A program made the position numbers and the translations under genes. The notes under the pieces were generated by a model. The model saw only the letters and a program-made list of their open reading frames with translations. It was not told the DNA's origin and searched no databases. A DNA stretch of 64,000 nucleotides, from the IMG/VR virus record IMGVR_UViG_3300049459_000229, positions 23,831 to 87,830 of that record; one strand, written 5' to 3'. Shown here in pieces: positions 47-23,385 of the stretch (the first letter of the stretch is position 1; the number at the start of each line of letters is the position of its first letter). Origin of the DNA: a virus.

Positions 47-351
47 AGCTCGCCTACCTCGACCTCTCCAACGGCCACCTGACCGAGGCGACCTTCGCAC
101 TGCTGGGCAAGCATTTCCAGTACACCAGCAATCCGATCGAAGTCGGTCTGGACTGGCCGGCTATGACCGTTGTGACGCACGGCTACGGCGTCTTCATGAC
201 CGTGCCCTACGACTACTCACTGCAGCAGGGTGAGGCCGTGCCGGAAGACCTTGCGCGCGTGCTGGCTGCCGCTCGGCTGCGTGACGCCACCCTGATCCGC
301 TTCGATGTCGACGGCGACGTCGATTCCACCCTCCCTTACTACGAATGGTGA
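43..351 (+). CDS. hypothetical phage protein, 102 aa
   Basis: Unrecognised small soluble protein. It has no signal peptide, membrane segment or cysteine cluster; an aromatic, mixed alpha/beta composition suggests a folded domain. The start is supported by AAGGAG at 32-37, five bases before the ATG, and by the ATGA overlap with the preceding frame. It is the first complete member of a tightly packed plus-strand run of small genes. A role in host takeover is possible only by analogy with similar phage gene blocks. Confidence 0.75.
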   Translation: MKLAYLDLSNGHLTEATFALLGKHFQYTSNPIEVGLDWPAMTVVTHGYGVFMTVPYDYSLQQGEAVPEDLARVLAAARLRDATLIRFDVDGDVDSTLPYYEW

Positions 352-354
352 CCC

Positions 355-675
355 ATGCAAGACATCGACATCAAATCCCTCAAGCCTGGCGATATCCTCG
401 AATTCGAAGGCGTCTTCCAGGTTTCGCCCTATGGTTGGACCAGTATTAACAGTGGCGCTGGTATCCCCGACTACGTGACCATCGCGCCGGTCAAGATCTC
501 CGTCACCGTGCCGGACGGCTTCAACGGCATCACGGCCATGGTGCAGGTGCTGGACGATAAGGCTGAGGCGGTCCGCAAGGAAGCCGACGGCAAGATCCTG
601 GTGCTCACGAAGCAGAAGAACGACCTGCTGCAGCTGAGCTACGGCGGCCAGGAGATTCTCGATGCGGAGGCCTGA
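355..675 (+). CDS. hypothetical phage protein, 106 aa
   Basis: Unrecognised. The protein opens with acidic and beta-prone stretches (MQDIDIKSLKPGDILEFEG), and KPGDILEFEG resembles the entry strand of small beta-barrel folds; that is only a structural impression. The C-terminal third is helical and charged. It starts three bases after the previous stop and ends just before the next start, so translation is probably coupled. No catalytic motif is visible. Confidence 0.75.
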   Translation: MQDIDIKSLKPGDILEFEGVFQVSPYGWTSINSGAGIPDYVTIAPVKISVTVPDGFNGITAMVQVLDDKAEAVRKEADGKILVLTKQKNDLLQLSYGGQEILDAEA

Positions 676-676
676 C

Positions 677-865
677 ATGCAACTCGAAATCAAAACCGTC
701 ATCGACTTTGGCGAGGACGGCCCGCCGCCCGGCGACTACAACGACATTCTGCGCTTCGCCGTCGAGCGCCTGAACGAGCATGTCCTGACGCCACTGTGCA
801 ATACCTACGGCGCCCAGGCCTCCACCAACACCGGCTGGACCAGCTCGGGAGACGACGAAGAATGA
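677..865 (+). CDS. hypothetical phage protein, 62 aa
   Basis: Small acidic protein of unknown function. An in-frame ATG at 662 also exists, but the ATG at 677 is preferred: GGAGG at 665-669 sits at good spacing before it and it follows the preceding TGA by one base. The C-terminus is rich in Ser, Thr, Asp and Glu and looks flexible. The stop overlaps the next start as ATGA. Confidence 0.7.
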   Translation: MQLEIKTVIDFGEDGPPPGDYNDILRFAVERLNEHVLTPLCNTYGAQASTNTGWTSSGDDEE

Positions 866-21355: not shown

Positions 21356-21384
21356 TTGACACAAGACAGAAGTTTGCTTACCCT
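21356..21384 (+). promoter_or_regulatory. phage promoter P1 for the replication operon
   Basis: -35 TTGACA (21356-21361), 17-base spacer, -10 TACCCT (21379-21384). The -35 extends as TTGACACAAG, which it shares with sites at 29440, 42292 and 63436 (minus). The -10 is weak against the housekeeping consensus, so a second factor may help. The rdgC-like ATG is at 21419. Confidence 0.6.
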
Positions 21385-21418
21385 AATAATCCCTTTCCCA
21401 AGAGAATTCACCTACCCT

Positions 21419-22273
21419 ATGTGGCTCAAAAACGCAACCATCTTCGGCATCAGCCCGAAGGCGCAATTCCCTGTCGAGCAGCTTGAGGCTGCTCGTTTCG
21501 TTCCCGCTGGCGACCTGCAGCTGACCTCCAGCGGCTTCGTGCCGATTCAGGGCGAGCTGGCCTACAAGCAGGGCAAGCACACCTTGCTGCGCTTCATGAT
21601 GGAAAAGAAACACCTGCCGGGCTCGGCCGTGGCGGTGAAGCTGGAGGAGCGCTGCGCCGAGTTGGAAGATCAGCAGGGCTTTCGGCCGGGCAAGAAGGCG
21701 ATGAAGGAGCTCAAGGAGCAGGTCATCGACGAGCTGTTGCCGCGCGCGCTGTCGTCGCGCCGTTCGACCCTGGTCTGGATCGATCAGGACCAGCACCGCA
21801 TCGTGATCGATTCGACGTCGAATGCCGTGATCGATGAGGTCCTGCGCGTGCTGCGTAAGACTTATGAAGGCATCGACCTGGGTATCTGCGATGTCAGCTG
21901 GCCGCGCGCCAAGGTGCTGACCGAGTGGGCGATCGACAACGAGCCGGCTGACTTCACGGTCGACGACACGGCGGTGTTGGCCTACCCAGGTGAACGCGGC
22001 AAGGTTGTGAAGTTCGAACGCGCTGATCTGAGCCAGAAGGATGTGCAGCAGCATTTTGCCGCCGGCGCCATCGTGCAGTCGGTCGCCATGACCTTCGGCA
22101 GCCGCCTCTCGTTCGTCATGACCGACAACAACCAGATTCGCAAGATTAAGCCGCTAGACGTGCTGCAGGAAGGCCGCGACGCCGAGAAGGACGTCGACCG
22201 CTTCGCCGGCGACGTCGAGCTGATGACGCGCGAGCTGGGCGTGCTGTTCGATCGCCTGGTGCGGGAAGCATGA
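21419..22273 (+). CDS. rdgC: RdgC-like recombination-associated protein, 284 aa
   Basis: The start MWLKNATIFGIS matches the RdgC N-terminus ('MWFKNL.IYRL'), and the length (284 aa against about 300 for Escherichia coli RdgC), the basic helical centre and the VLFDRLVREA C-terminus fit the family. RdgC is a ring-forming double-stranded-DNA-binding protein that affects RecA loading and recombination. In a phage it could protect genome ends or favour recombination-dependent replication. It is the first gene after promoter P1, suggesting early expression. There is no clear ribosome site before the ATG. In-frame upstream ATGs would fall on the promoter -35. Confidence 0.75.
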   Translation: MWLKNATIFGISPKAQFPVEQLEAARFVPAGDLQLTSSGFVPIQGELAYKQGKHTLLRFMMEKKHLPGSAVAVKLEERCAELEDQQGFRPGKKAMKELKEQVIDELLPRALSSRRSTLVWIDQDQHRIVIDSTSNAVIDEVLRVLRKTYEGIDLGICDVSWPRAKVLTEWAIDNEPADFTVDDTAVLAYPGERGKVVKFERADLSQKDVQQHFAAGAIVQSVAMTFGSRLSFVMTDNNQIRKIKPLDVLQEGRDAEKDVDRFAGDVELMTRELGVLFDRLVREA

Positions 22274-23385
22274 GCACAGCCTATTACAACGAGTTTGATC
22301 CCGGCGCCGCGGCGTGGCTCCGGGAGCTCATCAAAGAAAAACTGATCGCGCCGGGCGTGGTCGACGAAAGGAGCATCGCAGATGTCACACCCGGAGACCT
22401 TGCCGGATTTACCCAGTGCCACTTCTTCGCCGGCATCGGCGGCTGGTCCTACGCTCTCCGACTTGCAGGCGTCCCTGACAGCCGTCGAGTGTGGACGGGC
22501 AGCGCTCCTTGCCAGCCTTTCTCCTCGGCAGGCGAAGGCGCAGGGTTTGATGACGAGCGGCACCTATGGCCCGCCCTCCACCACCATGCCCGCGTCGGAC
22601 GTCCTGCAGAAATCCTTGGAGAGCAGGTTGCAAGCAGCCTCGTCGACCCATGGATCGACCTTGTACAAGCTGACCTGGAAGCCTTGGGTTACGCCGTCGG
22701 GTCGGTCGCGTTCCCGTCTGCGGGCATCGGTGCTCCGCACATCCGCGACCGCTGCTACTGGGCAGGCCGGCTGGGTGACGCCGACCTCCCGCGACTGGAA
22801 GGACTCGGGAGCCGATATCAAGCCGCGCTCGGACAATGGCAAGGAGCGGCTGGATCAGCTGCCCAGGCAAGCGAACTTGTGCGGCTGGCCCACGCCGACG
22901 CTTTGCGACAGCGGCCGGGTGCCGGCGCCGGACTTCACCACCAAGAACCTCACGCTGAACCATGGCGCGGTGCTGACGGGCTGGCCCACGCCGCGCGCGG
23001 CGGACGGCTCGAAGGGCGTGGACCCGACAGCGGACACGCTGCGCGGGACGGATCTGCCGACCACGGCCAGCTGGGCGGCTGGGATCGCCGTGCCGGGCCC
23101 GGCCCGACTAACGGCTACTGGGAAGCTGCTGACTGGCTTGCATGCCGAGACAGCCGATGGCGGCCTGTTGAGCCCGGCACACAGCCGCTGGCTCATGGGC
23201 TACCACGCAGCCTGGGATCGTGCGGCGCCGGGGTGGCAGGACTGGCACGCGTGGCAGGCCTTGATGCAGCAAGCCTTGGTCGAGCAAAGAGCTATCGCGT
23301 GACGGCGCTGCGCGGCTATGGCAATGCGATCAACGTCTACGCCGCGAAAGCATTTATTGAAGCGTTTTACGGAGTATCTGAATGA
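22270..23385 (+). CDS. DNA cytosine-C5 methyltransferase, 371 aa
   Basis: Transfers a methyl group from S-adenosylmethionine to carbon 5 of cytosine in DNA. Motif I is HFFAGIGGWSYALRLAG (residues 51-67). Motif IV is GSAPCQPFSSAGEG with catalytic Cys81. The motif VI equivalent is GEQVA (residues about 117-121), a variant of ENV seen in this phage subfamily. The C-terminal end (RVTALRGYGNAINVYAAKAF) matches the conserved motif X helix 'LRGYGNAI'. The centre from about residue 165 to 300 is Gly-, Ala- and His-rich and less conserved; it overlaps a second conserved frame (22382-23302). It probably protects phage DNA from restriction or marks host DNA. It overlaps rdgC by four bases. Confidence 0.85.
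   Translation: MSTAYYNEFDPGAAAWLRELIKEKLIAPGVVDERSIADVTPGDLAGFTQCHFFAGIGGWSYALRLAGVPDSRRVWTGSAPCQPFSSAGEGAGFDDERHLWPALHHHARVGRPAEILGEQVASSLVDPWIDLVQADLEALGYAVGSVAFPSAGIGAPHIRDRCYWAGRLGDADLPRLEGLGSRYQAALGQWQGAAGSAAQASELVRLAHADALRQRPGAGAGLHHQEPHAEPWRGADGLAHAARGGRLEGRGPDSGHAARDGSADHGQLGGWDRRAGPGPTNGYWEAADWLACRDSRWRPVEPGTQPLAHGLPRSLGSCGAGVAGLARVAGLDAASLGRAKSYRVTALRGYGNAINVYAAKAFIEAFYGVSE
22382..23302 (+). CDS. overprinted frame conserved with phage 'WPTP' proteins, 306 aa
   Basis: In the +1 frame of the methyltransferase gene, starting 112 bases in, an ATG preceded by AAAGGAG (22367-22373, spacing 8) opens 306 codons. The product carries segments I recognise from a widespread phage/prophage protein group: SLESRLQAASSTHGSTLYKL, LTWKPWVTPSG followed by SRLRASVLRTS, repeated GWPTP and GWVTP motifs, and a C-terminal SRWLMGYHAAWDR. 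The group's motif positions coincide with the methyltransferase motifs, so both frames appear constrained. A function is unknown. The strong internal ribosome site and family resemblance argue for translation; it could still be a database-propagated shadow frame. Confidence 0.55.
   Translation: MSHPETLPDLPSATSSPASAAGPTLSDLQASLTAVECGRAALLASLSPRQAKAQGLMTSGTYGPPSTTMPASDVLQKSLESRLQAASSTHGSTLYKLTWKPWVTPSGRSRSRLRASVLRTSATAATGQAGWVTPTSRDWKDSGADIKPRSDNGKERLDQLPRQANLCGWPTPTLCDSGRVPAPDFTTKNLTLNHGAVLTGWPTPRAADGSKGVDPTADTLRGTDLPTTASWAAGIAVPGPARLTATGKLLTGLHAETADGGLLSPAHSRWLMGYHAAWDRAAPGWQDWHAWQALMQQALVEQRAIA

Follow-up and report, generated by a model that had tools for sequence, protein, structure and literature searches.

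Many phages appear to build one cytosine methyltransferase from two proteins encoded on the same DNA

Can one segment of phage DNA encode two conserved proteins in different reading frames, or is the second frame a by-product of the first? The question is raised by a locus in the 64,000-nucleotide window analysed here, drawn from an IMG/VR virus record of 87.8 kb, where a plus-strand ORF of 371 aa (22270-23385; hereafter alpha) contains, nested in its +1 frame, an ORF of 306 aa that begins with ATG (22382-23302; hereafter beta, or the 'WPTP' ORF). A sequence-only reading had proposed that both encode functional proteins, belonging to two conserved families, and had named a shadow frame as the rival explanation. 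Both frames were open as claimed, and the peptides quoted from beta were present, with LEALGYAVG of alpha and TWKPWVTP of beta falling on the same bases. Alpha adjoins an upstream RdgC homologue (21356-22273, plus strand; PF04381, E=1.1e-71), whose stop codon overlaps the alpha start (ATGA), and an SNF2-related helicase (PF00176; 24508-25956, plus strand) is present downstream of the methyltransferase.

PHROG profile searches assigned alpha to phrog_363 (E=2.9e-74), and PF00145 matched it (E=4e-10) over model positions 66-165 of 324 only. As a cytosine-C5 DNA methyltransferase subunit, it contained motif I (FFAGIGG, 22423-22443), motif IV (PCQPFS with the catalytic Cys, 22507-22524, invariant in the alignment), motif VI, motif VIII (IRDRCYW, 22741-22761) and motif X (YGNAI, 23317-23331), the last located past the overlap and with YGNA invariant in the alignment. 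The earlier claim of complete methyltransferase motifs at both ends of frame 1 was correct for these five but not for motif IX, which was absent from alpha and was found at the end of beta instead. Beta was a member of phrog_1008 (E=8e-30) in the PHROG search; searches of Pfam, NCBIfam and PADLOC returned no match to it, and phmmer and profile searches against the PDB found no relative.

Loci for comparison were gathered with beta as the query and, to guard against bias, separately with alpha. Using tblastn, beta matches were found in 191 phage records, mostly within genes labelled cytosine methyltransferase, and beta lay at +1 of alpha in 168/168 viral and phage loci as well as in 80/80 loci from a scan of bacterial genomes. 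Amongst loci selected by alpha, the +1 frame was open over the tested span in 78 of 79, and the +2 frame was open in none. Non-redundant loci sharing <80 % alpha identity (n=106) were then compared with a null generated by shuffling the synonymous codons of alpha; IMG/VR contigs that had been fetched twice were removed as duplicates before the stop-count, regional dN/dS and module-pair statistics. Premature stops, which the sequence-only reading had singled out as a check, were rare: eight were seen in the +1 frame versus 331 expected, and 100 of the 106 loci were open versus 4.7 expected. The median pairwise similarity of the +1 frame was 199 bits, falling to 46 after the alpha-preserving shuffle. 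The synonymous-site check also went in favour of beta, with alpha sites nearly free before codon 83, frozen at many places within the overlap and free outside it (e.g. V120 was GTT in 99/99 sequences, A151 GCG in 97/97, P302 CCC in 95/95 and P306 CCG in 100/100).

A shadow frame would mean that only the methyltransferase is selected and that the +1 ORF is a by-product of its codons and of high GC content. This is a high-GC phage, a synonymous shuffle of frame 1 at the window locus alone left the +1 frame open in 1.2 % of trials, and WPTP does read through the alpha LA(H/D)A(D) motif. Set against these points, the deficit of stops, the excess similarity, the freezing of alpha synonymous sites only within the overlap and the neutrality of alpha where beta is conserved (see below) make the explanation extremely improbable, and we considered it refuted by the comparative tests of stops, similarity, synonymous sites and regional dN/dS. 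Because so few stops were seen relative to the number expected under methyltransferase-only selection, the +1 frame is, on this comparative evidence, a real gene and not a shadow.

Beta is also equipped with its own start signals. The strong ribosome site reported previously, AAAGGAG, was located at 22367-22373, 8 nt upstream of the inner ATG and within alpha codons 33-35, where synonymous codon choice favoured the site; a match to the anti-SD of at least five bases occurred at the beta start in 38 % of 101 relatives versus 4.5 % expected. The ATG itself (22382-22384) overlies alpha D38-V39 and was kept in 77/101 relatives. The D38 codon, which forms the beta ATG when it is GAT, was GAT in 84/101, compared with 29 % GAT in non-overlapping parts. 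These frequencies indicate that the beta start codon and ribosome site are themselves selected. In phage N15 (L003, about 2483-2570) a stop removes the usual beta start, and GGGAGG with an ATG near alpha codon 94 could be an alternative. The selected Shine-Dalgarno sequence and start codon are at odds with a programmed frameshift that fuses alpha and beta into one chain, as is the fact that nearly all loci have an alpha that stays in its own frame through to motif X. A single ORF in L305 does join motifs I-VI to beta, as a frameshift would, but may itself be a sequencing frameshift, and we regard this mechanism as very unlikely.

Regional dN/dS, for which 47 independent pairs were analysed by a purpose-written count similar to OLGenie, revealed that the two frames were not constrained in the same places. 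Over alpha codons 40-82, dN/dS was 0.13 for alpha and 0.91 [0.74-1.12] for beta, and constraint on beta was undetectable across its N-terminal ~45 residues (22382-22516). Purifying selection on beta extended across alpha codons 83-310, in line with the proposal of two functional proteins. Codons 83-165 displayed values of 0.29 for alpha and 0.43 for beta, and this part of the gene included a doubly constrained segment (22520-22768) in which alpha motifs IV-VIII lie over the beta sequence SPRQAKxxGLM, a helix and a STLYKLTWKxxxTPSGR hairpin. Over codons 171-278 alpha was effectively neutral at 0.92 [0.85-1.01] and beta was constrained at 0.32 [0.26-0.39], and over codons 279-310 the values were 0.44 and 0.57, respectively. 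An independent shuffle test of codons 171-278 gave alpha a similarity of 20.0 bits versus the 18.9 left by a beta-preserving shuffle, and beta 39.3 bits versus 15.4 for its own shadow. Because dN/dS and the shuffle test agree there, it is the methyltransferase frame, and not the WPTP frame, that behaves as a shadow by both measures between motifs VIII and IX. The AF2 model of alpha was confident in the catalytic part, with C5-methyltransferases including M.HhaI and M.HaeIII as the nearest PDB folds, and had pLDDT mostly <50 at residues 180-271, which are predicted to be disordered. AF2 modelled beta alone poorly (pLDDT 60.5, pTM 0.32), and a Foldseek search of that model against the PDB gave no fold match.

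The likely contribution of beta to the methyltransferase was indicated by its C-terminus, which has the consensus LxPxxxRWLMGxPxxW and in the window contains motif IX (LLSPAHSRWLMGYHAAW, 23165-23215). The same segment is present in frame in the single-chain methyltransferases L298 and that of Mycobacterium phage Chanagan. PF00145 covered positions 2-322 of 324 in L298, whose segment 283-326 matched the beta family at 1.6e-10, and the Chanagan chain matched phrog_1008 at 1.5e-31; direct profile comparisons of beta with the single chains were short, at 16-24 columns. A reverse search for distant relatives by the alpha motif V-A-H-G-V-P-x-R-V-D alone recovered beta motif IX in 79/80 loci, and alpha codons in this set were likewise fixed or nearly so (GTG 67/68, GCT 68/68, CAT 68/68, GGG 66/68). 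The exception, L348, had motif IX too, displaced by an HNH insertion. In that locus (offset 6400; 337-1650 and 575-1516) HNH-like sequence is inserted after beta motif IX and the EP.(V/I)GRVAHGVP stretch of alpha is duplicated, an arrangement that resembles a homing insertion in an overlapped gene.

Whether any WPTP protein occurs without an overlapping methyltransferase, a further check proposed by the earlier reading, was examined by searching viral contigs for WVEWLMG(F/Y)P, a variant of the beta motif. The 80 loci selected by this motif alone comprised 63 with a full overlapping alpha (motifs IV and X), 10 cut by a contig end and seven that were split, fused or single-chain, or missed by the simple motif search; no stand-alone WPTP gene was present amongst those inspected. 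A beta that is a separate protein (e.g. an anti-restriction protein, toxin or regulator) merely overprinted on a complete methyltransferase would fit with its lack of a Pfam or PDB match. It would not fit with a beta that ends in a C5-methyltransferase motif missing from alpha, with single-chain relatives that hold the motif IX segment in the enzyme itself, or with the constant company of the methyltransferase in the loci examined, and we judged it improbable. Most likely, alpha and beta are instead subunits of the same cytosine-C5 methyltransferase. The previously suggested pair of conserved families thus stands as two proteins, but these are most likely halves of one split enzyme rather than unrelated.

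Several loci departed from the usual arrangement. L298 (108-1160, minus strand) encodes a single chain with motif IX in frame, which could be a natural fusion or the product of sequencing errors, and its +1 frame (317-847, minus strand) retains GW.TP-like modules without motif IX. It was placed inside the overprinted group in a catalytic-domain tree with moderate support (91/80), and because the tree nests it amongst overprinted loci it looks like a later fusion. In L286 (542-2082, reverse strand) the N-terminal part of alpha is followed by beta and then by a separate motif X ORF in another frame, the gene being either interrupted or arranged in three pieces.

In C5-methyltransferases, the interval between motifs VIII and IX houses the target-recognition domains. 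Because alpha is neutral (0.92) and beta constrained (0.32) in this interval, target recognition is very probably the task of beta. The interval in the window contains three beta GW.TP modules (22769-23095, starting at 22769, 22883 and 22979), which we propose to be target-recognition cassettes. The middle of beta mostly carried one to four such units in the window's family and as many as seven in the distant set, at a spacing of ~37 residues. Similar modules in two betas were found at different positions in 1140 pairs versus 938 at the same position, and module 1 of the window was found again, in first or second position, in relatives whose alpha identity was as low as 30-45 %. Within single betas, similar module pairs numbered 0/338 versus 9.9 expected, and none of 2000 permutations was as low. 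Looser single-linkage clustering with a 50 % identity cut-off merged most modules into a chain and gave no repeat deficit; the claim of non-repetition is based on the pairwise test and not on this clustering. By the pairwise test, modules occur in shuffled order from phage to phage and no beta contains a repeated one, a feature shared with multispecific phage methyltransferases; non-redundant tandem modules are the pattern that a multispecific enzyme would show.

It might instead be that beta gives motif IX only and that the target-recognition domain resides in alpha, as PMC3404938 predicts for M.EcoHK31I. Alpha residues 279-310 (NGYWEAADWLACRDSRWRPVEPG) are conserved on their own account, consistent with such an arrangement, but residues 171-278 are neutral and predicted to be disordered, and the beta modules on the same bases are constrained. 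We assign this alternative a low but appreciable probability. A more far-reaching version of recognition by beta, which we consider evenly balanced between true and false, is that beta serves as an exchangeable subunit with multiple specificities, in which GW.TP modules of ~37 residues act as independent recognition cassettes shuffled by phages within the overlapping gene, and that the recognition region of alpha has decayed to a neutral linker kept open only so that alpha reaches motif X.

In sum, the explanation that we strongly favour is a single cytosine-C5 DNA methyltransferase produced as two polypeptides from overlapping frames, with beta providing recognition modules and motif IX in trans. 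Alpha, with motifs I-VIII and X, would bind AdoMet and provide the catalytic Cys. The small domain would come in trans from beta, whose translation begins independently within alpha, and would comprise the GW.TP target-recognition modules and, after them, motif IX. A change of beta modules would lead to methylation of different sites, and the hidden beta, with its exchangeable blocks, probably sets the choice of sites to be marked. The pair probably shields phage DNA from host restriction. Counting against this reading are the poor AF2 model of beta, to which no PDB fold could be matched and which leaves a target-recognition fold putative, the short span of the profile comparisons between beta and single chains, and the prediction of the M.EcoHK31I target-recognition domain in the large subunit (PMC3404938). 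From sequence we infer that alpha and beta assemble and methylate DNA, that the modules recognize DNA with one specificity each and that the enzyme has an anti-restriction role. If this is true, the label 'cytosine methyltransferase' in hundreds of phage annotations covers one half of an enzyme and overlooks the half responsible for specificity, and a recoded alpha gene, once cloned, would yield a dead or mis-specified protein. The locus would then be an instance of a long and very widespread same-strand overlap whose bases serve two parts of the same enzyme and where selection is divided region by region; comparing its module code with methylomes could allow prediction of the restriction sites that a phage protects.

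The overprinted arrangement was found in phages whose hosts are Proteobacteria, Firmicutes and Bacteroidota, with Paenibacillus, Lacticaseibacillus and Bacteroides among the host genera, and in many phages a single DNA-marking enzyme appears to be built in this way. Depositors had annotated both ORFs in K1ind2, Xanthomonas phage PhiXhv-28 and Paenibacillus phage Diva, the record of which names beta 'g49 internal gene'. In Salmonella phage SAP012 (L473, 1504-2299) alpha and beta are intact and neither is annotated. The 'Mte8-like' label given in K1ind phages offers no more than a lead on relatedness to M.EcoHK31I. Searches of open-licence literature returned no account of this overlap in phages. 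Phrog_363 and phrog_1008, of which alpha and beta are direct members, are both labelled 'DNA methyltransferase', and the PHROG library is silent on their sharing DNA or forming one enzyme.

By analogy, the closest known system is the two-polypeptide M.EcoHK31I, in which beta is likewise encoded inside alpha in another frame; here the small subunit is encoded within the large at +1 in 168/168 and 80/80 loci. M.EcoHK31I and M.EaeI are two-polypeptide C5-methyltransferases of type II restriction-modification systems (Lee, Kam & Shaw 1995, as cited in PMC3404938), and M.EcoHK31I has motifs I-VIII and X in its large subunit and motif IX in its small subunit (PMC3404938). The likeness to our pair is one of motif layout and nested coding. 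Unlike M.EcoHK31I, the window-type pair is phage- and prophage-borne across several bacterial phyla and has one to several shuffled modules in beta, and in contrast to the target-recognition domain predicted in the M.EcoHK31I large subunit (PMC3404938), the large subunit here is neutral in that region and beta is conserved. M.AquI, another two-subunit C5-methyltransferase, is similarly a natural split of the catalytic part from the small domain, but it splits within the variable region and has motifs IX and X in its small subunit, whereas motif X remains in alpha here and the two genes overlap almost fully. That such enzyme splits work is shown by M.EcoHK31I and M.AquI. The recognition modules of the multispecific enzymes of Bacillus subtilis phages are about 40 residues long, and the beta modules, putatively DNA-recognizing, resemble them as tandem units in a phage enzyme; those enzymes are single chains, whereas the modules here reside in a separate overprinted polypeptide. 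Phages SPR, phi3T and rho11 of B. subtilis encode such multispecific C5-methyltransferases (Behrens et al. 1987, as cited in PMC4081073). Relative to these systems, the new elements suggested by our comparisons are the breadth of phages involved, the evidence for target recognition in an overprinted frame and the modular cassettes.
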